DNA of 10,001 bases, from NCBI GenBank assembly GCA_902805995.1, contig CADCUU010000500.1, positions 1-10,001 on the forward strand. Direction: 5' to 3'. Both the position numbers and the translations under genes were made by a program. Within the stretch, counting starts at the first letter, position 1. Each line of letters begins with the position of its first letter. The notes under the pieces are model-generated. The model had not been told where the DNA came from. It did no database searches and was given only the letters and a program-made list of their open reading frames with translations. Origin of the DNA: an uncultured Rubellimicrobium sp. GTDB lineage: Bacteria; Pseudomonadota; Alphaproteobacteria; Rhodobacterales; Rhodobacteraceae. Of the stretch, positions 1 to 9,749 are shown piece by piece.

Positions 1-940
1 ACTCCTCCGCCGCATGCAGAACGGCGGCCCGCGCCCCGACATCGTCACCGACCAGACCTCCGCCCACGATCCCCTGCACGGCTACTGCCCCGCCGGCTGG
101 TCCCCCGCCGAATGGCGCGCGAAACAGGAAACCGAGCCCCAATCCGTTGAACGCGCCGCCCGCGCCTCCATGCGCTCGCATGTCGAGGCCATGGTCGGCT
201 TTTGGGAAGCGGGCGTCCCCGTCCTCGACTACGGCAACAACATCCGCCAGGTCGCCAAGGACGAAGCGCTGGACAACGCCTTCGCCTTCCCCGGCTTCGT
301 CCCCGCCTACATCCGCCCGCTCTTCTGCCGGGGCATCGGCCCCTTCCGCTGGGTGGCGCTGTCCGGCGACCCGGAGGACATCCGCAAGACCGACGCCGCG
401 ATGAAGCGCCTCTTCCCCGACAACGCCCATCTCCACCGCTGGCTCGACATGGCGGCGGACCGCATCGCCTTCCAGGGCCTCCCCGCCCGCATCTGCTGGA
501 TCGGCCTCGGCGACCGCCACCGCGCAGGGCTCATGTTCAACGAGATGGTCGCCTCCGGGGAACTCAGCGCCCCGGTCGTCATCGGCCGCGACCACCTGGA
601 CAGCGGCTCGGTGGCCTCCCCCAACCGGGAAACGGAGGCCATGCGCGACGGCTCCGACGCGGTGTCCGACTGGCCGCTCCTCAACGCGCTCCTCAACACG
701 GCGTCGGGGGCGACCTGGGTGTCGCTCCACCACGGCGGCGGGGTGGGGATGGGCTATTCCCAGCATTCCGGCGTGGTCATCGTGGCCGATGGCACCCCGG
801 AGGCGGCGCGGAGGCTCGACCGCGTCCTCTGGAACGACCCCGCCACCGGCGTCATGCGCCACGCCGACGCGGGCTACGAGATCGCGAGGGACTGCGCCAA
901 GGACAAGGGCCTGCGGCTGCCGGGCATCCTGGGCAACTGA
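1..940 (+). CDS. hutU: Urocanate hydratase (urocanase), C-terminal part, cut by left edge
   Basis: Urocanase is the second enzyme of histidine degradation. It uses tightly bound NAD+ to hydrate urocanate to imidazolone propionate in the cytosol. The open frame runs in from base 2, so the first ATG (14) is internal, not a start. The stretch [12 protein letters not shown] follows immediately, then [10 protein letters not shown], which carries the family's essential cysteine (Cys410 in the Pseudomonas enzyme; Cys105 counted from the ATG at 14). After that come [27 protein letters not shown] and the near-terminal [15 protein letters not shown]. About 312 residues are present of a usual 555-560, so roughly 245 N-terminal residues lie outside. 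The C terminus is intact, ending in the stop at 938-940. Other hut genes are expected to the left. There is no sign of decay. The downstream neighbour is convergent, so this gene closes its transcription unit. Confidence 0.97.
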
Positions 941-1032
941 TCCAGGCCGGGCCGCCCTGAACCCGCCCCGTCGCCAGGGCGCGTCGTCCACCACGTCGCC
1001 CGGTCAGCCTCAGGCCCGCCGGGCAGGGGCTC

Positions 1033-1836
1033 TCACTGCTTCGACAGCCAGTCCCGGAACTCCGCCACCACCTCGTCCTGCGCGCTCACAAGGTACTCCG
1101 CCGATGGATAGGCTCCGCCATGCACGTCCTCCGCAAAGGCGCGCATCGCGGCGACCCGCTTCTCCTGCAAGCGCGCGCGTTCCGCCCGGAAGTCGGCATA
1201 CACCTTGGCGTGGCGCGGCACCCGCCCCTCGGTCTGCCCCAGCACGTCGTCGGTGAACAGGTACTGCGCGTGCCCCTTCGCCCCCCCACCCATGGAGACG
1301 AGGAACAGCGAGGTCCTTTCCGCGATGGCCTCGTTGATCTGTTTCGGCACTACCTCGATCTCCACGGCGAAGGCCCCGGCCTCCTCCTGCGCCTTGCACT
1401 GCTCCCAGACGAGCTTCGCGGTGTCGAGCGTCTTGCCCACCGCTTTGAAGCCGCCCGTCCAGGTCCGTTTGGACGGGACAAGCCCCACATGCCCGCAGAC
1501 CGGAATGCCGTTCTCGCTCAGCGCCCGGACGGTCCTCAGCGACCCCGAGCAGTAGACCGCATCCGCCCCCGCCTTATAGAGCGGAAAGGCCCAGCGCAGG
1601 AAATCGGACGTGTCACCGATCTCGAAGAAGTTGTCCCCCGGAAAGGCGAACGCCTTGGGCGCCACCTCGCGAAAGCGCCGGTCGAGGATCATCGCGGGCG
1701 GGACGGACAGAAGCTCCACCCCCGCCTCCTCGGCAGCCTGCGCCTCCTCCAGCGTCTCGACCCGGAGCATGGCGAACTGGTGCGTCCCCCGCGCGGCGCG
1801 AAGGTCGGCGACGGTCCAGCGCGACGACGGCGTCAT
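1033..1836 (-). CDS. PanB-like (ketopantoate hydroxymethyltransferase superfamily) protein with altered active site
   Basis: This 267-residue TIM-barrel protein has the length and C-terminal half of PanB, which normally transfers a C1 unit from methylene-tetrahydrofolate to 2-oxoisovalerate for pantothenate synthesis. Matches seen: IPVCGHVGL (111-119) for PanB VCGHLGL, a GGFKAVGK stretch (128-135) for GGYKVQGR, EVVP at 161-164 keeping the catalytic-type Glu, SMGGG (181-185) for GIGAG, and GAYPSAEY (241-248) for GVYPGEEH. The N-terminal half departs. The VGDSLG segment holding the metal-binding Asp45 of E. coli PanB reads SVPPAM, and VKIEGG with Lys112 and Glu114 reads VYCSGS. Canonical ketopantoate synthesis is therefore unlikely, and the substrate is unknown. 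The gene starts inside the end of mocE with a 4-base ATGA overlap, so the two are translationally coupled and it probably works with the MocDE-like oxygenase. Automatic annotation would probably name it PanB. Family placement is firm; function is open. Confidence 0.85.
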   Translation of the reverse strand: MTPSSRWTVADLRAARGTHQFAMLRVETLEEAQAAEEAGVELLSVPPAMILDRRFREVAPKAFAFPGDNFFEIGDTSDFLRWAFPLYKAGADAVYCSGSLRTVRALSENGIPVCGHVGLVPSKRTWTGGFKAVGKTLDTAKLVWEQCKAQEEAGAFAVEIEVVPKQINEAIAERTSLFLVSMGGGAKGHAQYLFTDDVLGQTEGRVPRHAKVYADFRAERARLQEKRVAAMRAFAEDVHGGAYPSAEYLVSAQDEVVAEFRDWLSKQ

Positions 1837-2147
1837 GCCTCCACCATGACGAGCACGCGCCCGCCCTCGGCCTTGGTCGGGTAGGTCCGCAGGTTCACGC
1901 AGGCTGGCGCGCGCTTGGCCTGCCCTGTGCGGTAGTCGAACTGCCCGTTATGCTTGGGGCACTCGATCACGTAGTCCATGACCAGCCCCCCCGCGAGGTG
2001 GACGTTCTCGTGGGTGCAGAGCCCATCCGTGCAGAAGAACTCGCCGTCCGGGCTGTGGTAGAGCGCGTAGGTGCGCCCCCCGTGGTCCCAGCGCATCACA
2101 TCCTCGTCGTCGATCTCGTCCACAGCGACCGCGTCGATCCAGGGCAT
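1833..2147 (-). CDS. mocE: MocE-like Rieske [2Fe-2S] ferredoxin
   Basis: This small soluble electron carrier has 104 residues, the usual size of MocE-family ferredoxins. It holds the Rieske ligand pattern C-x-H then C-x2-H: Cys44 and His46 in LCTHENVHL, and Cys63 and His66 in ECPKHNGQFD. An acidic N terminus and a WDHGGRTYALYH strand match the front of the Rieske fold. There is no catalytic domain, so it should hand electrons to a partner oxygenase, and the desaturase-fold gene just upstream in the same unit is the obvious one. In Rhizobium leguminosarum MocE is the ferredoxin of the MocDEF rhizopine system (established knowledge). The start at 2147 is set by GGGAGGA six bases upstream. An 86-base spacer with two hairpins separates it from mocD, and its stop overlaps the PanB-like start. 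No ferredoxin reductase (MocF) is in the window, so it must borrow one from elsewhere. It could serve another oxygenase of similar type. Confidence 0.88.
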   Translation of the reverse strand: MPWIDAVAVDEIDDEDVMRWDHGGRTYALYHSPDGEFFCTDGLCTHENVHLAGGLVMDYVIECPKHNGQFDYRTGQAKRAPACVNLRTYPTKAEGGRVLVMVEA

Positions 2148-2171
2148 TCAAGGTCCTCCCGTTTATGAAGA

Positions 2172-2228
2172 GGCCGGGCGCAAGGGCCCGGCCGGGTATC
2201 GATGTGAAAGGCCGCGTCACCCGCGGCC
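2172..2228 (-). repeat. Two consecutive hairpins between mocD-like and mocE-like genes
   Basis: Stem 1: GGCCGGGC (2172-2179) with GCCCGGCC (2186-2193), 8 pairs, 6-base loop. Stem 2: GGCCGCG (2210-2216) with CGCGGCC (2222-2228), 7 pairs, 5-base loop. Stem 2 lies five bases after the oxygenase stop as transcribed. Neither has a T-tract, so they look like mRNA-stabilising or processing elements that could uncouple oxygenase and ferredoxin levels. Confidence 0.6.
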
Positions 2229-2233
2229 CGATG

Positions 2234-3322
2234 TCACTCGGCCGCGGTCCCAAGGGCGGCGGAGTGGAAATCCTCCCGGTAGGGGCGGGCGGTCGCGGGC
2301 AGGTCGCGCCGCAGGAAGTAGTCCTCGTAGGCAAGCTGCCGCTTCAGCGCGGGCCACATCTCGCGGAAGCCCTCGGCGATCGACGCGTTCGGCGCGGGCA
2401 GGTCGTGCCTGATCAGCTCATGCAGCTTCGGCAGCGCGTGGTAGGGCACCATGGGGAACATGTGGTGCTCCACGTGGTAGTTCATGTTCCAGTAGATGAA
2501 CCGCGACACCGGGTTCATGTAGACGGTGCGCGAGTTCAGCCGGTGGTCGATCACGTTGTCCGCAAGGCCCCCATGCTGGAGCAGCCCCGTCATGATATGG
2601 TGCCAGGCGCCGTAAAGCCGGGGTAGCCCGATCACCAGAAGCGGCAGGATGGAGCCCGTGACCACCGCGAGGAGGATCGTCGCCGCATAGATCGCGACCC
2701 AGACCCGCGCCACGCGAATCACCTTGGGCTTCTCGCTGTCGGGGATGTAGGTCGCCTCCTCCGGGTCGAGCCGCCCCAGCGCGTTCACGACCATCCGCTT
2801 CCATCCGGCCCAGCCGTCGATGATCCCGAACACGTTCAGCACCAGCTTGAACAGCGCGGGCGGGCGCATGATCGCGATCTCGGGGTCGCGGCCGACGATG
2901 TAGGTGTCCGTGTGGTGGCGCGCATGGCTCCAGCGCCAGGAATGCGGGTTCCGCACGATCATGAAGCAGGCGATCTGGTACACCCAGTCGTTCATCCAGC
3001 CCGTCTTGAAGGCGGTGCCGTGCTGCGTCTCGTGCCAGCGCGAATCCGACGCCGAGCCGTAAAGCACGCCGTAAGCCAGCCAGAAGGGCAGGGACAGCCA
3101 GGGATGCCCGCCGAGCCAGAGCGCGATTCCCGCGCCCGCCAGCACGGCCATCGAGCCCAGCCAGATCGCGGTGTCGCGGATCGCGGGCTCGTCCCGGCGC
3201 TGCATCAGCTCCTTCATGACCTTGCGGGGCACCTCGGTGTGGTACCACTCCGCCGCGGCAAGGCCCGTCTCCACGGCCCGTCGCCCATCCGGGCCCAGTA
3301 GACTGTAGTCGCGTGTCGCCAT
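2234..3322 (-). CDS. mocD: MocD-like membrane di-iron oxygenase (fatty acid desaturase/hydroxylase fold)
   Basis: This is an integral membrane non-heme di-iron enzyme of 362 residues. It has the three histidine boxes of the desaturase/hydroxylase family: HETQH at 97-101, HARHH at 133-137 and HVEHH at 283-287, plus an extra His250 in LLQHGG that is often a further ligand. Hydrophobic segments at about 52-70, 76-92 and 205-232 provide the membrane part. The C-terminal 70 residues are soluble and charged. The ATG at 3322 is chosen because GAGGG sits six bases before it; an upstream in-frame ATG at 3424 would only add a proline/arginine-rich tail translated from the control region. The family includes MocD, proposed to oxidise the O-methyl group of 3-O-methyl-scyllo-inosamine, and true lipid desaturases, and sequence alone does not separate these. 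The MocE-type ferredoxin encoded next favours the MocD reading. A cyclitol substrate for a membrane enzyme is unproven. Confidence 0.87.
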   Translation of the reverse strand: MATRDYSLLGPDGRRAVETGLAAAEWYHTEVPRKVMKELMQRRDEPAIRDTAIWLGSMAVLAGAGIALWLGGHPWLSLPFWLAYGVLYGSASDSRWHETQHGTAFKTGWMNDWVYQIACFMIVRNPHSWRWSHARHHTDTYIVGRDPEIAIMRPPALFKLVLNVFGIIDGWAGWKRMVVNALGRLDPEEATYIPDSEKPKVIRVARVWVAIYAATILLAVVTGSILPLLVIGLPRLYGAWHHIMTGLLQHGGLADNVIDHRLNSRTVYMNPVSRFIYWNMNYHVEHHMFPMVPYHALPKLHELIRHDLPAPNASIAEGFREMWPALKRQLAYEDYFLRRDLPATARPYREDFHSAALGTAAE

Positions 3323-3345
3323 GAGGAGCCCTCGCAAAGGGTTGA

Positions 3346-3374
3346 ATTGCAGTCGCGCCCTGGACGGGCGCCAA
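3346..3374 (-). promoter_or_regulatory. Candidate sigma70-type promoter of the mocD-mocE-panB-like unit
   Basis: On the minus strand TTGGCG (3374-3369) stands 17 bases before TGCAAT (3351-3346), each matching 4 of 6 consensus bases. Transcription would begin near 3338, just ahead of the GAGGG at 3333-3329. The -35 box lies inside the 3365-3390 inverted repeat, so a bound repressor there could block it. Moderate to weak support. Confidence 0.35.
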
Positions 3375-3390
3375 AAATGTTCTGCGCCCG
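3365..3390. repeat. Inverted repeat over the mocD -35 region, possible operator
   Basis: Perfect 7-base arms CGGGCGC (3365-3371) and GCGCCCG (3384-3390) flank a 12-base AT-rich centre containing five consecutive A. Location over the candidate -35 box fits an operator. As RNA it would be a hairpin only if transcription started further upstream. No known binding motif was recognised. Confidence 0.35.
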
Positions 3391-3636
3391 GGGCGTGCGC
3401 GCCACGGGCAGGGTTCCTGCCCAAGTGGACACGATGATCCCCAGGGCAGGCTCGTCCAACGACCCCGCGCCGCGCTCCTCCATCCCGGGCGGGGCGGCAG
3501 GCTGGCCCCGGACGCGCGCGCGCCCCGGGAGGGGTGCACGGGGCACGGCGTTCACTGGCCTGTCCTGCTCGCTCCGCCTCGGGTTCAGGAGCTTCGACAC
3601 GAAGTCGTCCCGTTCTCTACCTCACGCCGCCCAAAT

Positions 3637-3658
3637 TGTCCAAGATCGCTGCTGGACA
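3637..3658. promoter_or_regulatory. TGTCCA-N10-TGGACA inverted repeat, candidate regulator site
   Basis: Perfect 6-base arms at 3637-3642 and 3653-3658 with a 10-base spacer, flanked by A/T runs (AAAT on the left, TTT on the right). It ends 29 bases before the lacI-type TATAAT box. Suitable for a dimeric regulator. LacI proteins usually prefer closely spaced half-sites with a central CG, so the binder is uncertain. Confidence 0.35.
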
Positions 3659-3687
3659 TTTCGTCATAAACCATCAAGACTGACCCC

Positions 3688-3693
3688 TATAAT
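3688..3693 (+). promoter_or_regulatory. Perfect -10 box (TATAAT) upstream of the LacI-family gene
   Basis: TATAAT stands 30 bases before the ATG at 3724, rare in such GC-rich DNA. The -35 position 17 bases upstream reads CATAAA (3665-3670), a poor match, so the promoter may depend on an activator or be weak. Transcription would start near 3700, giving a leader of about 24 bases. Confidence 0.5.
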
Positions 3694-3723
3694 TGAGGTT
3701 ATCACATCAAAGGTGTCGAGATC

Positions 3724-4755
3724 ATGGCGCGCAGGCCCACCATCCAGGACGTCGCCAAGGCCGCCGGCGTAAGCCAGGCCACCGTCGATCGCGTGCTCAA
3801 CGGGCGGGAGGCCGTGCGCGAGGAAACCGCCCGCCGCGTTTACGAGGCCGCCCGCCGCGTGGGCTACCACGCCGCGCCCCTGATCGCGCAGCGCCTCCAG
3901 CCCGAGGTGCCGTCTCTCCGTCTCGGCGTCGTGCTCCACAAGGAAAAACAGCCCTTCTATCAAGCCTTTGCGGCTGAGATCGAGGCCGCCGCCCGGCGCG
4001 CTGCGGGCGTCCGCGTTCGCCCGATCATCGAGTTCTCCTCCTCCCAGGCCCCGACCGAATTCGCGTCCCTCATCCTGGGAATGCGGGGCAGGGCGGACGT
4101 GGTCGCCGCCAGCGCCGTGACCCATCCCGACGTGACCGAGGCCGTGTCCCAGCTCCGCAGCGAAGGCATCCCCACCTTTGCGCTCCTCAACGACTTCGCG
4201 CCCGGAATTCGCCAGAATTATTTGGGGCTTAACAATCTGAAGGTCGGCCGCATCGCCGCCTCGCTGATCGGCCTCGCAGCGCACAAGCCCGGCCGCGTCG
4301 CCGTCTTCGTGGGCGGCTACCGCTGGCACGGCCACGAGTTGCGCGAGGCCGGCTTCCGAAGCTGGTTCCGGGAGTTCGCCCCCCAGTTCCAGCTCCTCGA
4401 CACCCTGGTGAACCTGGAGACCCGCCAGCTCACCTACGAGGCCACCCTGGACCTCCTGAACCGCCAGAGGGAGCTTCGGGGCCTTTATGTGGCCGGCGGC
4501 GGCATGGAAGGCGCCATCGCCGCCCTGCGCGAAGCCCGTAAACCAGGAGAGGTTTGCCTTGTTGTGAACGAACTGACGCCTCAATCCCGTGGTGCATTGG
4601 TGGACGGGTTCGCCACGATGGTGATCGCCACGCCGTTGCCCCAGCTCTGCGACGATCTCGTCCGCCTGGGGGCCGAGGCTGCAAGGACTGGACCCACCGA
4701 TACGGCGGGCCAGCACTTCCTCCGGCCGGAGCTTGTGCTCCCCGAATCCGTCTGA
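3724..4755 (+). CDS. LacI-family transcriptional regulator
   Basis: This DNA-binding regulator of 343 residues has the standard LacI layout. The N-terminal helix-turn-helix is TIQDVAKAAGVSQATVDRVLNG (residues 6-27 in all). The common Ser of ATVSRVLN is Asp22 here, a variant I associate with regulators next to ribose/inositol-type ABC transporters. A hinge region lies at about 46-60 and a periplasmic-binding-protein-like effector domain at about 65-343, with strands such as LRLGVVLH, RVAVFVGG and LYVAGGGMEGA. The start is fixed by the helix-turn-helix beginning at residue 6. The Shine-Dalgarno sequence is modest (AAAGG about 10 bases upstream). The gene is divergent from the oxygenase unit and 162 bases before the transport operon, so it plausibly controls both and itself. 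The ligand is probably the transported sugar or cyclitol or a breakdown product, by analogy only. Confidence 0.93.
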   Translation: MARRPTIQDVAKAAGVSQATVDRVLNGREAVREETARRVYEAARRVGYHAAPLIAQRLQPEVPSLRLGVVLHKEKQPFYQAFAAEIEAAARRAAGVRVRPIIEFSSSQAPTEFASLILGMRGRADVVAASAVTHPDVTEAVSQLRSEGIPTFALLNDFAPGIRQNYLGLNNLKVGRIAASLIGLAAHKPGRVAVFVGGYRWHGHELREAGFRSWFREFAPQFQLLDTLVNLETRQLTYEATLDLLNRQRELRGLYVAGGGMEGAIAALREARKPGEVCLVVNELTPQSRGALVDGFATMVIATPLPQLCDDLVRLGAEAARTGPTDTAGQHFLRPELVLPESV

Positions 4756-4917: not shown

Positions 4918-5745
4918 ATGCTGGCGTTCGCGCTCAACCACATGACAGTGGCACGGCTTTCCTTTGCCGATCTGCTGGAGGCCGCCGCCGATCTCGGCTG
5001 CGTCGGCGTGGAGCTTCGCTGCGACCTCCCCCAGCCCCTTTTCGACGGCCTTCCGCCGGAGGCGGCGGGCGACATGGCCCGCGAACGGGGCCTCAGCATC
5101 CTCGCCGTGGCCGAGGTCAAGCGCTTCAACGACTGGTCCGAGGACAAGGCCCAGGAGGCTCTCGCCCTCATGAGGACCGCGCGGGCCTGCGGCGCCGAGG
5201 CCGTGTCGCTCATCCCCCGCAACGACAACGGCGGCATGGGAAACGGCGAACGGCAGGCCCATCTCCGCGTGGCCCTCAAGGCCCTGCGCCCCATGCTGGA
5301 GGATCACGACCTCGTGGGCCTCATCGAGCCCCTGGGCTTCGCCACCTGCACGCTGCGCCACAAGGCCGAAGCCGTGGAGGCCATCGAGGCGCTGGGCGCC
5401 CGGGGCCGGTTCCGGCTCGTCCACGATACCTTTCACCACCACCTCGCGCAGGGCGGCCCGATCTTCCCGGAGCACACCGGCATCGTCCACGTCTCTGGCG
5501 TGGTCGATCCGCTGATCTCGGTGGCGGAGATGAGGGACGGGCACCGCGTCCTCGTCGATGCCTCCGACCGGCTCGGCAACCTGCGCCAGATCGCGGAGCT
5601 TCGCGCCGCCGGCTGGAACGGCCCGCTGAGCTTCGAGGCCTTCGCGCCCGAAACTCACGCCGCGGCCGACCCGGTGGGCGACCTGCGGGCGTCAATGGAA
5701 TTCATGAGGTCGCATCTCGCGGCCCGGACGGCCTCGGCCGCCTGA
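4918..5745 (+). CDS. MocC/IolI-like TIM-barrel sugar (inosose) isomerase/epimerase
   Basis: This 275-residue cytosolic enzyme belongs to the xylose-isomerase-like TIM-barrel (AP-endonuclease 2) family. The opening ALNHMTVARLSF and the LGCVGVELRCDL segment (27-37) resemble rhizopine-catabolism MocC and inosose isomerase IolI. Likely divalent-metal ligands at the expected strand ends are Glu137 (LIEPLGF), Asp170 (LVHDTFHHH), His191 (VHVSG) and Glu240 (LSFEAF), matching the E-D-H-E pattern of IolI. Members isomerise or epimerise keto-sugars or inososes. The context of an inositol-type transporter and an IolG-like dehydrogenase favours a keto-inositol substrate, though hydroxypyruvate isomerase is the common automatic name. 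GAGGGG lies 10 bases before the ATG, which is needed for the first strand. It is the first gene of the operon, 88 bases before the first binding protein. Confidence 0.85.
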   Translation: MLAFALNHMTVARLSFADLLEAAADLGCVGVELRCDLPQPLFDGLPPEAAGDMARERGLSILAVAEVKRFNDWSEDKAQEALALMRTARACGAEAVSLIPRNDNGGMGNGERQAHLRVALKALRPMLEDHDLVGLIEPLGFATCTLRHKAEAVEAIEALGARGRFRLVHDTFHHHLAQGGPIFPEHTGIVHVSGVVDPLISVAEMRDGHRVLVDASDRLGNLRQIAELRAAGWNGPLSFEAFAPETHAAADPVGDLRASMEFMRSHLAARTASAA

Positions 5746-5776: not shown

Positions 5777-5809
5777 GTCCGGCCCAAAACGATCCGCGGC
5801 GTGCCGGAC
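5777..5809 (+). repeat. Spacer hairpin with GTCCGGC/GCCGGAC arms before binding protein 1
   Basis: Arms 5777-5783 and 5803-5809 pair perfectly over seven bases around a 19-base loop, in the 88-base spacer between isomerase and first binding-protein genes. The same two heptamers recur in later spacers of this operon. It could be a processing or stability element; it has no T-tract. Confidence 0.45.
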
Positions 5810-5833
5810 GTCGCTCAAGTGGAGGGGTCCACA

Positions 5834-6799
5834 ATGAACAAGAAGCTTCTTCTCGCGGCCGCCGCCGTCGGCATCGGTGCCGGCTTCATCGGCGTCATGT
5901 CCTCGGCAGGCGGGTCCAAGACCGTCGGCGTCGCCATGGCGGCCTTTGACGACAACTTCCTGACCGTCCTGCGCAACGGCATGACCGACTATGCGGGCAC
6001 GCTCGAAGGCGTGGAGCTGCAGGTCGAGGACGCCGAGGACGACGTCGGCAAGCAGCTCAACCAGATCGAGAACTTCATCGCCTCGGGCGTTGACGCGATC
6101 ATCGTGAACGCGGTGGACACCTCGGCCACCCAGGCCATGACCGACAAGGCCGCCGCGGCGGGCATCCCGCTCGTCTACGTGAACCGCCAGCCCATCAACA
6201 TCGACACGCTGCCCGACAACCAGGCCTTCGTCGCCTCCAACGAGGTCGACTCCGGCACGCTCCAGACCACCGAAGTCTGCCGCCTCCTCAAGGACGCGGG
6301 CCTCGCCCAGGCCAACATCCTCGTCATGCAGGGTGAACTCTCCAACCAGGCCGCCGTGGTCCGCACGCAGGACATCCACGACGTGATCGCCACGCCGGAC
6401 TGCTCCTTCATGACCATCGTCGAAGAGCAGACCGCGAACTGGGACCGTCAGGAGGGCGCGGACCTCATGACCAACTGGCTCACCTCGGGCGTGAAGTTCG
6501 ACGCCGTCATCGCCAACAACGACGAAATGGCCGTCGGCGCGATCCAGGCCCTCAAGGCCGGGGGCATCTCTATGGACGACGTGGTCGTCGCCGGCATCGA
6601 CGCGACGCAGGACGCTCTCGCGGCCATGCAGGCGGGCGATCTCGACGTCACCGTGTTCCAGGACGCGGCCGGCCAGGGCTCGGGCTCGCTCGACGCCGCC
6701 CTCGCGCTCGCCAACGGCCAGCCGGTGGAGCAGAAGGTCTACATCCCCTTCCAGCTCGTCACCCCCGCGAACCTCGCCGACTACCTGACCGCCAACTGA
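5834..6799 (+). CDS. Sugar/cyclitol ABC transporter substrate-binding protein 1 (MocB/RbsB-like)
   Basis: This exported binding protein of 321 residues belongs to the ribose/inositol periplasmic-binding family and captures substrate for the permease encoded downstream. The N terminus MNKKLLL plus a hydrophobic Ala/Gly-rich stretch to about residue 26 is a signal peptide; the cleavage site is not a clean Ala-x-Ala. The mature part opens with SKTVGV. By hand alignment to E. coli ribose-binding protein, sugar-contact positions are kept: Arg118 (VNRQP, for Arg90), Arg177 (for Arg141), Asn229 (NNDEM, for Asn190), Asp256 (GIDAT, for Asp215) and Gln276 (VFQDA, for Gln235). The ATG at 5834 is chosen over 5801 because GGAGGGG lies six bases upstream and the signal peptide then starts correctly. 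The next gene is a gapless paralogue at about 75% identity. MocB-like is a family-level call; ribose, inositol or inosamine are possible ligands. Confidence 0.93.
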   Translation: MNKKLLLAAAAVGIGAGFIGVMSSAGGSKTVGVAMAAFDDNFLTVLRNGMTDYAGTLEGVELQVEDAEDDVGKQLNQIENFIASGVDAIIVNAVDTSATQAMTDKAAAAGIPLVYVNRQPINIDTLPDNQAFVASNEVDSGTLQTTEVCRLLKDAGLAQANILVMQGELSNQAAVVRTQDIHDVIATPDCSFMTIVEEQTANWDRQEGADLMTNWLTSGVKFDAVIANNDEMAVGAIQALKAGGISMDDVVVAGIDATQDALAAMQAGDLDVTVFQDAAGQGSGSLDAALALANGQPVEQKVYIPFQLVTPANLADYLTAN

Positions 6800-6849: not shown

Positions 6850-7815
6850 ATGAACAGAAAGCTGCTTCTCGGGGGCGCCGGCGTCGGCCTGGCCGCAATG
6901 CTGGCGGGCCTGATGGCCACGGGATCGGGAACCAAGACGATCGGCGTCTCGATCCGCGACTACGACGACATCTTCCTCAGCGTCCTGCGCGACGGCATGA
7001 CCGACCATGCCGTCACGCTCGAAGGCGTCCGCATCACGATGGAGGACGGCGACAACGACGTCGTCAAGCAACTGAGCCAGATGGAGAACTTCATCGCCTC
7101 GGGCGTGGACGCCATTGTGATGAACGCGGCCGACACCTCGGCCACGCAGGCCATGACGGACCGGGCGGCGGCGGCGGGCATCCCGCTCGTCTTCGTCAAC
7201 CTCGAACCCGTCAACATGGCCGAGCTTCCCGACAACCAGGCCTTCGTCGGCTCCAACGAGGTCGACTCCGGCACGCTCCAGACCCAGGAGGTCTGCCGCC
7301 TCCTCAAGGAACAGGGCGTGGCGCAGGCCAAGGTCCTCGTGCTCCAGGGCATGCTGTCGAACCAGGCCGCCGTGGTCCGCACGCAGGACATCCACGATGT
7401 CATCGAAACGCCCGAATGTTCCTTCATGACCGTCATCGAGGAGCAGACGGGCAACTGGCAGCGCCAGCAGGGGGCCGACCTCATGGCCAACTGGCTGACC
7501 TCCGGCATCGAATTCCACGCCGTCATCGCCAACAACGATGAAATGGCGATCGGCGCGATCCAGGCCCTCAAGGCCGGGGGCGTGCCGATGGACGACGTGA
7601 TCGTCGCGGGCATCGACGCGACGCAGGACGCGCTCTCGGCCATGCAGGCCGGGGATCTGGACGTGACCGTGTTCCAGGACGCGGCCGGGCAGGGGCGGGG
7701 CTCGCTCGACGCGGCCCTCGCCCTCGCCAGCGGCGAGGCTGTCGAGCAGAAGGTCTACATCCCCTTCCAGCTCGTCACCCCCGCCAACATTCAGGACTAC
7801 CTGACCGTCAATTAG
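6850..7815 (+). CDS. Sugar/cyclitol ABC transporter substrate-binding protein 2 (paralogue of protein 1)
   Basis: A second exported binding protein, also 321 residues, aligns with protein 1 without a gap. My hand count gives 242 identical residues, about 75%. Identity is about 55% over residues 1-80 (signal peptide and start of the N-terminal lobe) and about 82% afterwards. The signal peptide is MNRKLLLGGAGVGLAAMLAGLMATG. Arg177, Asn229, Asp256 and Gln276 are kept, but the position of ribose-contact Arg90 is Leu118 (VNLEP), and residues 36-38 change from AAF to RDY. A different ligand preference is therefore plausible, with Arg36/Asp37 possibly compensating. GAAAGGGG lies seven bases before the ATG, 50 bases after protein 1. 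Only one permease and one ATPase gene follow, so both proteins probably feed one importer. Tandem duplication is the simplest origin. Confidence 0.93.
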   Translation: MNRKLLLGGAGVGLAAMLAGLMATGSGTKTIGVSIRDYDDIFLSVLRDGMTDHAVTLEGVRITMEDGDNDVVKQLSQMENFIASGVDAIVMNAADTSATQAMTDRAAAAGIPLVFVNLEPVNMAELPDNQAFVGSNEVDSGTLQTQEVCRLLKEQGVAQAKVLVLQGMLSNQAAVVRTQDIHDVIETPECSFMTVIEEQTGNWQRQQGADLMANWLTSGIEFHAVIANNDEMAIGAIQALKAGGVPMDDVIVAGIDATQDALSAMQAGDLDVTVFQDAAGQGRGSLDAALALASGEAVEQKVYIPFQLVTPANIQDYLTVN

Positions 7816-7920: not shown

Positions 7921-8967
7921 ATGGCCGAAATCGCAGTCAATCCGGGAAGGGCCGTCGCGGGAAAGCCGCGCACGACCTGGCCCCTCGAACTCAACGCCCT
8001 CGTGGGCCTTCTCGCCATCGCCCTCATCTTCGAGATCGCGGGCTGGATGGTCCGTGAGCAGAGCTTCCTCCTCAACTGGCAGCGCCTGTCGATCATGATC
8101 CTGCAGGTGTCCGTCGTGGGCATCATCGCCGTGGGCGTGACGCAGGTCATCATCACCGGCGGCATCGACCTGTCGTCCGGCTCCATCGTCGGCATGACCG
8201 CCCTCATCGCCATGAGCTTCGCCCAGGCGGGCACCCGCAACGGCCAGGACTTCACCGACGCGGTCTTCTGGAACCAGGGCTGGACCGACCTTCCGGTCTT
8301 CATGCCGATCATCGTGGGCCTCGCGCTCGGCCTGATCGCGGGCCTCGTGAACGGCGCGCTGATCGCCTACACCAAGATCCCGGCCTTCATCGCCACGCTC
8401 GGCATGATGGTGTCCGCCCGCGGCGTCGCCAAGTGGTGGACCAACGGCGAGGCCGTGTCGAACCCGACCGAAGGCTTCATCTCCATCGGCACCGGCATGA
8501 TGCCCGTCATCATCCTCCTCGTGGTCGGCGTCTTCTTCCACCTGCTGCTGACCTACACGCTCTACGGCCGCCACACCTACGCCATCGGCTCCAACGCCCA
8601 GGCCGCGCGGATGTCCGGCATCAACGTCGAACGTCACCTCGTGATGGTCTACGCCATCGCCGGGATGCTGTCCGCCGTCGCGGGCCTCGTGGCTGCCTCG
8701 CGCGCCCTGACCGCCCAGTCGGGCATGGGCCAGATGTACGAACTCGACGCCATCGCCATCGCGGTCATCGGGGGCGTGTCCCTGATCGGCGGCCGGGGCT
8801 CCATCGTCGGCGCAGGCATCGGCATGCTGATCTTCGGCGTGATCATCTCCGGCTTCACCTTCCTTCAGGTCGACGCCTTCTACCAGGAAATGATCAAGGG
8901 CGCGATCATCGTGGCCGCCGTCGTGGCCGACATCTACCGCCAGAAGAAGCGCGGAATCGTGGACTGA
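7921..8967 (+). CDS. Sugar ABC transporter permease, RbsC type
   Basis: The inner-membrane channel subunit has 348 residues and belongs to the branched-chain-type permease family (BPD_transp_2) used for ribose, xylose and inositol import. A cytosolic N terminus of about 22 residues precedes a series of hydrophobic helices (for example 24-43, 56-79, 128-150, 192-212, 241-260, 295-315, 326-338). Family hallmarks are ITGGIDLSSGS (79-88 region), the cytosolic loop LYGRHTYAIGSNAQAARMSG (214-233), which contacts the ATPase, and ELDAIAIAVIGGVSLIGGRGS (274-294). AGGAG ten bases upstream supports the ATG. The protein probably works as a homodimer since no second permease is present. The ATPase gene starts 11 bases after the stop. 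The sequence does not determine the substrate; neighbours suggest a cyclitol. Confidence 0.96.
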   Translation: MAEIAVNPGRAVAGKPRTTWPLELNALVGLLAIALIFEIAGWMVREQSFLLNWQRLSIMILQVSVVGIIAVGVTQVIITGGIDLSSGSIVGMTALIAMSFAQAGTRNGQDFTDAVFWNQGWTDLPVFMPIIVGLALGLIAGLVNGALIAYTKIPAFIATLGMMVSARGVAKWWTNGEAVSNPTEGFISIGTGMMPVIILLVVGVFFHLLLTYTLYGRHTYAIGSNAQAARMSGINVERHLVMVYAIAGMLSAVAGLVAASRALTAQSGMGQMYELDAIAIAVIGGVSLIGGRGSIVGAGIGMLIFGVIISGFTFLQVDAFYQEMIKGAIIVAAVVADIYRQKKRGIVD

Positions 8968-8978
8968 GGTAAGGACAC

Positions 8979-9749
8979 ATGGCCAAGATCATTCTCAAGA
9001 CCGAAGGTCTCACAAAGCACTACGGCGGCATCCACGCCCTCCAGGACGCGGACTTCGAACTCCGCGAGGGCGAGCGCGTCGCGATCGTCGGCGACAACGG
9101 GGCGGGCAAGTCCACCTTCGTGCGCCAGATCACCGGCGTGGAGCAGCGCACCGGGGGCCGCATCTGGTTCGACGGCAAGGAAGTCTTCTTCCAGGGCCCG
9201 CTCGAAGCCCGTGAAGCCGGCATGGAATGCGTGTTCCAGAACCTCGCGCTCTGCGACGACCTGGACGTGCCCTCCAACCTGTTCCTGGGCCGCGAAAAGC
9301 TGCTCGTGAACCTCGGCCCCTTCTCGATCCTGGACAAGCGCGGCATGCGCAAGGCCACCGAGGACGGGCTCCGGCGGACGGGCGTGCGGATCCCGCGCCT
9401 CGACTACTCGATCCGCCGCATGTCGGGCGGCCAGCGCCAGGGCGTGGCGATCGCGCGGACGGCGACCTTCGCCTCCAAGATGATCATCATGGACGAGCCC
9501 ACCGCCGCCCTCGGCGTGCAGGAAACCGCGCAGGTGGAGAACATCATCCGCACGCTCAAGGCCCAGGGCACGCCGCTGATCCTCATCAGCCACAACCTGC
9601 GCCAGGTCTTCGACCTCGCCGACCGGATCGTGGTGTTCCGCCGCGGCCACATCGTCGCCAACCTCCGCCGCGAGGAAACCGACGGCAACGACATCGTGGC
9701 CTACATCACGGGCGTGAAGACGCAGAACACCGCCTCGGCGATGATGTAA
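8979..9749 (+). CDS. Sugar ABC transporter ATP-binding protein, single cassette
   Basis: The cytosolic ATPase that powers the importer has 256 residues. Walker A is GDNGAGKST (38-46), the Q-loop Gln87 (VFQNLAL), the signature MSGGQRQ (148-154), Walker B MIIMDEP (168-174, with Glu173 as catalytic base) and the switch His205 (ISHNL). RbsA/XylG-type ATPases of this transporter class often carry two fused cassettes of about 500 residues; this one has a single complete and apparently active cassette, so it should dimerise. The shorter form is known in FrcA-like and other alphaproteobacterial systems, so this is not a truncation. GAGGTAAGGA overlaps the end of the permease gene just before the ATG, giving tight coupling with an 11-base spacer. 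Confidence 0.96.
   Translation: MAKIILKTEGLTKHYGGIHALQDADFELREGERVAIVGDNGAGKSTFVRQITGVEQRTGGRIWFDGKEVFFQGPLEAREAGMECVFQNLALCDDLDVPSNLFLGREKLLVNLGPFSILDKRGMRKATEDGLRRTGVRIPRLDYSIRRMSGGQRQGVAIARTATFASKMIIMDEPTAALGVQETAQVENIIRTLKAQGTPLILISHNLRQVFDLADRIVVFRRGHIVANLRREETDGNDIVAYITGVKTQNTASAMM

Follow-up and report, generated by a model that had tools for sequence, protein, structure and literature searches.

Genes at the Locus

The three minus-strand genes analyzed here, encoding a MocD-like oxygenase, a MocE-family ferredoxin and a PanB-like protein, lie in a 10,001-base stretch of DNA (the window) from an uncultured Rubellimicrobium sp. of the family Rhodobacteraceae (GCA_902805995.1). The window is an entire contig (CADCUU010000500.1) of a draft genome that comprises 504 contigs and is 85% complete. 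All three genes are present at 1033..3322, where the initial annotation had located them, and the identities it had assigned were each matched by profiles (PF00487, TIGR02377 and PF02548, respectively):

2234..3322, minus strand: MocD-like membrane di-iron oxygenase of the FA_desaturase family, 362 aa, ATG at 3322
1833..2147, minus strand: MocE-family Rieske [2Fe-2S] ferredoxin, 104 aa, matched by PF00355 and TIGR02377
1836-1833, minus strand: ATGA overlap of the mocE TGA stop with the panB-like ATG start, read from the sequence
1033..1836, minus strand: PanB-like protein of the ketopantoate hydroxymethyltransferase (KPHMT) fold, a predicted one-carbon (C1)-handling enzyme, 267 aa

The first of these proteins scores 122.5 bits with PF00487 (E 3.4e-35) and carries three histidine boxes (HETQH, HARHH and HVEHH), which places it among MocD-type oxygenases; the second belongs to the MocE family by its TIGR02377 (MocE_fam_FeS) score of 163.9 bits vs. 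a cut-off of 136.15, and its translation contains the Rieske motifs CTH and CPKH. The mocD gene is separated by 86 bp from the downstream mocE, and the overlap between mocE and the panB-like gene suggests that these two are likely translationally coupled. A consensus scan of positions 900-3800 found no promoter-like site and no terminator-like site on the minus strand, the sole terminator-like site in this interval being on the plus strand and at chance level.

Relation of the PanB-like Protein to PanB

The PanB-like protein exceeds the gathering score of PF02548 (124.6 vs. 28.7 bits), with a match covering only positions 96-258 of the 259 in the profile, and its predicted structure is a triosephosphate isomerase (TIM) barrel of the KPHMT fold. 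It shares this fold with PanB (1m3u, 3vav, 1o68) and differs from it by a deletion, by changes at D84, K112 and E114, and by a score below the cut-off of the panB equivalog model TIGR00222 (95.3 vs. 207.55 bits); it is also under the cut-off of NF001452. What is deleted is a stretch of some 20 residues that follows the Asp45/Ser46 segment in PanB.

PanB normally transfers a C1 unit between methylene-tetrahydrofolate (methylene-THF) and a ketoacid, and Asp45, Asp84, Glu114 and Lys112 are its Mg-ligand or site residues. The D84, K112 and E114 positions are kept in none of 147 relatives of the PanB-like protein, and that of Asp45 holds Asp in 10 of the 147 in a stretch of uncertain alignment. The positions of H136 and E181, by comparison, are kept in 147/147 (His116 and Glu161 in the window protein), and the family has new invariant residues, e.g., His209. 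The host genome carries a separate canonical PanB (341.3 bits), and no PanC was found within 6 kb of the PanB-like gene in any of the 151 places surveyed (62 from the class and family samples, 83 in the named loci, 5 in plasmid records and the window itself).

Conservation and Distribution of the Trio

From 549 confirmed loci in named genomes the best 80 were kept (the named loci) and, hence, represent near kin of the PanB-like protein of the window; L numbers below designate individual loci of all samples. MocD and MocE both occur within 3.5 kb of the PanB-like gene in 73/80 of them by tblastn, several of the remaining 7 sitting at contig ends, and a hidden Markov model count finds each of the two in 80 of 83 places. 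A MocE-centered neighborhood survey of 149 genomes of the family of the window showed that 28 of the 41 MocE genes above cut-off (including the one in the window) have a PanB-like neighbor no more than 5 kb away. In the same sample, 32 of 50 PanB-like places have MocE within 5 kb, among 77 MocE places compared (all 41 above cut-off and the first 36 listed below it). The trio is, therefore, conserved in other genomes, and the outcome that the initial annotation had named as refuting its proposal, i.e., that the three genes are rarely adjacent outside this strain, did not materialize. No description of the mocD-mocE-panB-like trio was found in the open-access literature by titles and abstracts among the matches listed, which falls short of demonstrating its absence from print.

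The distribution of the PanB-like family is patchy. It is present in 14/240 genomes of the class sample and 32/149 of the family sample (own genome included), in 34/151 Rhizobiaceae genomes, and in 14/299 genomes of the phylum sample, all of them within the class of the window. Up to four matches per genome are observed in the class and family samples. A record titled uncultured beta proteobacterium (L175) contains a PanB-like gene and purU as a divergent pair, with no MocDE match nearby; its neighbors look, by translation, like a TIM-barrel isomerase, an AGE-type protein and a TRAP transporter.

Changing Oxygenase Partners

An oxygenase is encoded within 6 kb in 48 of the 62 PanB-like places outside the window (class and family samples; three of the 49 non-own family-sample places, G320:C25, G277:C18 and G253:C20, are left out of this set). 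These oxygenases represent three families, with overlapping counts of 33 for MocD, 13 for FA_hydroxylase (PF04116, a different membrane di-iron family) and 7 for PhyH (PF05721, a 2-oxoglutarate dioxygenase), examples of the latter two having been checked against Pfam. Four of the PhyH matches are weak (70-88 bits with a three-sequence model; L085, two places in L100, and L102). FA_hydroxylase is found directly beside the PanB-like gene, with gaps of 2-74 bp, in L051, L066, L076, L082, L104 and L108, and in the first of these, where the PanB-like protein is 66% identical to that of the window, it occupies the position of MocD. Among 20 Rhizobiaceae places, hand-picked from 44 so as to contain all 7 with purU, the oxygenases within 6 kb are MocD in 11, FA_hydroxylase in 4 (one of them weak: L241, 83 bits) and PhyH in 6.

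A quick tree was built from 86 PanB-like proteins and two PanBs, the named loci being represented by 19 hand-picked members of the 80 (L052 and L160 are identical in sequence). Labels for the nearest oxygenase need 22 changes on this tree vs. a mean of 30.9 after shuffling, and the FA_hydroxylase label alone needs 8, at least 7 of them forced by starred branches. Thus, the labels cluster on the tree, yet partners were swapped repeatedly.

Two groups of loci stand somewhat apart. L093, L094 and L097-L099, from other Alphaproteobacteria, form a PanB-like subgroup with a possible N-terminal extension; three of these loci lack an oxygenase within 6 kb and two adjoin a PhyH dioxygenase. In L244-L248 and L250, the PanB-like gene is accompanied by a PhyH dioxygenase and parts of an ATP-binding cassette (ABC) transporter (in L245 the ATPase match only), with no match to MocD or MocE; this group is a candidate for another demethylation system.

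Folate C1 Genes Beside the PanB-like Gene

The other recurrent neighbors of the PanB-like gene are genes of folate-dependent C1 metabolism. Four of five plasmid records hand-picked from 442 carry purU: the gene order is mocD-mocE-FAD reductase-panB-like-purU-folD on one Agrobacterium and one Mesorhizobium plasmid, and panB-like is followed by purU on one plasmid each of R. leguminosarum and S. meliloti, while the fifth record, also from R. leguminosarum, has neither purU nor folD. In L111 and L112 the order is PanB-like, PurU and FolD. Among the 44 Rhizobiaceae places, PurU lies within 2 kb of the PanB-like gene in 7, spread over 6 genera, where genome sizes and PurU counts would predict 0.048 (Poisson 1e-13, with shared ancestry ignored). 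L233-L237 have the order MocD-MocE-MocF-PanB-like-PurU, L232 has MocE-MocF-PurU-FA_hydroxylase-PanB-like on one strand, and in L231 the order is FA_hydroxylase, MocE, PanB-like and PurU, with other sequence between them; PurU is, therefore, found alongside each of the two membrane oxygenase families. On the quick tree, 8 changes are counted for the PurU label (12 rows).

Over the entire set, PurU is located within 6 kb in 15/151 PanB-like places (11/146 without the five picked plasmid records) and FolD in 3/151. At the same distance FrmA, FrmB, GlyA, GcvT and MetF occur in 0/151, a somewhat uneven comparison given that the PurU and FolD queries were Agrobacterium proteins and the other five were from E. 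coli. Of seven further control genes, six are found in 0/151 places and one, of the response-regulator type, in 3.

Proposed Function and Its Alternatives

Building on gene content, conservation, residue changes, the predicted fold and the recurrent purU linkage, we infer a substrate, its demethylation and the reaction of the PanB-like protein as follows. The trio would constitute an oxidative O-demethylation module in which the PanB-like protein moves a C1 unit onto THF, an explanation to which, taken as a whole, we assign a probability of roughly 0.45. The ABC transporter would take up a polyol bearing an O-methyl group (a methyl-inositol or a methyl-sugar is probable), and MocD, reduced via the Rieske ferredoxin MocE, would hydroxylate this methyl group, the resulting hemiacetal decomposing to free polyol and formaldehyde. 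This hydroxylation would require a reductase; such a protein, MocF, is encoded in 12/20 of the picked Rhizobiaceae loci and not in the window. The PanB-like protein, a presumed descendant of PanB that has lost the Mg/ketoacid site and kept Glu161 and His116, would then load C1 from formaldehyde, or straight from the hemiacetal, onto THF, yielding 5,10-methylene-THF, which FolD and PurU, where linked, may carry on to 10-formyl-THF and formate.

The PanB-like protein would work on a common C1 product, since it accompanies three oxygenase families and stands repeatedly beside PurU or FolD; and, because the ketoacid/metal side is gone, loading of C1 onto THF appears to be the simplest remaining chemistry. 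The suggestion of the initial annotation that the protein acts on the oxygenase product is, accordingly, narrowed: oxygenases that vary and a purU/folD that keeps returning point to the C1 product rather than the demethylated skeleton. A broader generalization, which in our estimation falls somewhat short of an even chance, is that the PanB-like family is a dedicated 5,10-methylene-THF-forming enzyme for demethylase-derived C1, a THF counterpart of Fae that evolved from PanB by losing its metal/ketoacid half and serves as a plug-in among the three oxygenase families in rhizobia and Rhodobacteraceae.

Several observations weigh against this interpretation. The linkage to PurU is confined to a minority of places, FolD being rarer still, and PurU is enriched only by adjacency, not at the genome level (21/34 Rhizobiaceae genomes with a PanB-like gene vs. 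100/151 overall; 3/14 vs. 54/240 in the class sample). Three loci around similar PurU genes gave no PanB-like, MocD or MocE match. Neither purU nor folD is present in the window itself, and PurU, FTHFS (PF01268) and FolD (PF02882) have no match in the 85%-complete draft genome, the FolD profile having matched 12/14 control genomes; incompleteness perhaps accounts for all three, or, for FolD and FTHFS, an alternative C1 route. No oxygenase is found within 6 kb in 14/62 PanB-like places, some of them near contig ends. As 13 of the 41 MocE genes lack a PanB-like gene within 5 kb (4 of the 13 on contigs <10 kb), the PanB-like protein is not required by every such MocE system. Several paralogues per genome exceed the need for a general formaldehyde trap. 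Finally, Glu181 of PanB is usually assigned a ketoacid role, so that keeping this residue is not in itself an indication of folate.

Among other explanations, an earlier reading makes the PanB-like protein a lyase, aldolase or isomerase whose substrate is the sugar or inositol skeleton left after demethylation. Its occurrence alongside ABC transporters, TIM barrels and dehydrogenases in catabolic clusters of the sugar type, the up to four matches per genome (several beside different transporters) and the predicted TIM-barrel fold are all in keeping with such a role; we consider it unlikely, since the oxygenase family and the catabolic partners vary while the PanB-like protein remains, an immediately adjacent purU or folD is a repeated feature, and in L233-L237 it is encoded between MocF and PurU. 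In another scenario, the protein would join the formaldehyde to some acceptor different from THF in a metal-free aldol addition that retains C1 as carbon. The PanB fold and the equivalents of Glu181 and His136 in 147/147 relatives would suit this chemistry, which would account, in addition, for oxygenase linkage without purU; it leaves the recurrent purU/folD unexplained, however, and beyond oxygenase, ferredoxin, regulator and transporter parts the clustered loci offer no equally constant neighbor, making this option improbable in our view.

Loss of three PanB metal/substrate positions in 147/147 relatives, together with an oxygenase in 48/62 places, could also be read as the signature of a protein that assists the oxygenase in a non-catalytic or binding role (a stabilizer, a formaldehyde or hemiacetal binder, or a sensor), but the strictly kept His and Glu of PanB plus new invariants such as His209 suggest an active site and render this quite improbable. 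Least credible of all is an ordinary ketopantoate hydroxymethyltransferase, i.e., a spare panB, as would be implied by the PF02548 match and by the automatic record names of these proteins (3-methyl-2-oxobutanoate hydroxymethyltransferase). We rejected a true PanB on the basis of the scores below both the TIGR00222 and NF001452 cut-offs, the changed Asp84, Lys112 and Glu114 positions, the lack of PanC within 6 kb in the 151 places and the canonical PanB of the genome itself.

There are precedents for the passage of C1 from demethylation or dehalogenation via THF and PurU. In the portions of the respective reports that bear on this point, purU is part of the sarcosine oxidase cluster glyA-soxBDAG-purU, where substrate C1 passes via THF to PurU (PMC3691474), and a FolD/PurU branch, likewise with purU in the gene cluster, takes methyl C1 via THF during chloromethane use (PMC3621897). 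The oxidase or methyltransferase itself, as presented there, gives C1 to THF, whereas a separate PanB-fold protein is proposed here. The relevant section of a review calls the condensation of formaldehyde with THF spontaneous and names accelerating enzymes for tetrahydromethanopterin (Fae) and glutathione (Gfa) (PMC8879981); relative to that account, the PanB-like protein would be a functional counterpart for THF, with another proposed cofactor and likened to them by function alone. If true, a widespread operon enzyme for the THF step would supply a missing piece of one-carbon metabolism, might account for the use of O-methylated polyols by alphaproteobacteria without formaldehyde poisoning, and would call for correction of the records that name PanB-like proteins 3-methyl-2-oxobutanoate hydroxymethyltransferase.

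Neighboring Genes and the Likely Substrate

The trio is flanked in the window by the following genes:

3724..4755, plus strand: LacI-family regulator, divergent from mocD (PF00356 54.3 bits, PF13407)
4918..5745, plus strand: xylose-isomerase-like TIM-barrel protein (PF01261 74.5 bits)
5801..6799, plus strand: sugar-type ABC substrate-binding protein 1 (PF13407 174.1 bits)
6850..7815, plus strand: sugar-type ABC substrate-binding protein 2 (PF13407 169.5 bits)
7921..8967, plus strand: ABC permease (PF02653 130.3 bits)
8979..9749, plus strand: ABC ATPase, single domain, 256 aa (PF00005 96 bits)
2-940: hutU (urocanate hydratase), truncated where the contig begins and convergent with panB-like

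The initial annotation had likened MocDE to the pair proposed to O-demethylate rhizopine. This likeness stands at the level of the MocD and MocE families and does not extend to a rhizopine-specific unit. The model of the rhizopine substrate-binding protein (NF052284) has its cut-off at 420, whereas the two binding proteins of the window score 39.7 and 38.9, and the regulator, within the 10,001-base contig, belongs to the LacI family and not to MocR. Conversely, none of 9 loci around rhizopine-type binding proteins of Rhizobiaceae (8 of the 9 proteins over the cut-off; some loci cut by contig ends) contains mocD, mocE or panB-like. The binding-protein scores and these 9 loci led us to reject a rhizopine cluster as such. 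The rhizopine mocDEF system, as far as its description in PMC10107442 goes, resembles the module in combining a MocD-type oxygenase with a MocE ferredoxin, to which rhizobial loci add the FAD ferredoxin reductase; the window differs in having LacI instead of MocR, no MocF and another binding protein. No panB-like or purU gene figures among the moc units named in the relevant part of that paper. In R. leguminosarum pRLa11 (L109, 4602-9831), a MocR-type regulator that passes the rhizopine MocR model (751.3 vs. 650) heads the order mocD-mocE-FAD reductase-panB-like-purU, and the binding protein of this locus is not of the rhizopine type.

The best guess for the substrate is an O-methyl-inositol or methyl-sugar, as suggested by the location of the module in sugar-type transport clusters and by inositol genes beside it, IolC in L079 and IolB with IolD in L096 (all over cut-offs). 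An IolB-like protein below cut-off (152.9 vs. 205) and a class II aldolase adjoin a window-type cluster in L067, and a candidate IolE near the module scored only 28.6 vs. 290, which does not support that label. The host genome contains iolD.

Homologues of the LacI-family regulator are divergent from mocD in other loci as well. The tandem binding proteins are 75% identical to each other and are accompanied by one permease and one ATPase, the latter having 256 aa vs. about 500 positions in the related sugar ATPase models that it matched. In Rubellimicrobium mesophilum (L115), hutU is found on the same side, less than 1 kb away.

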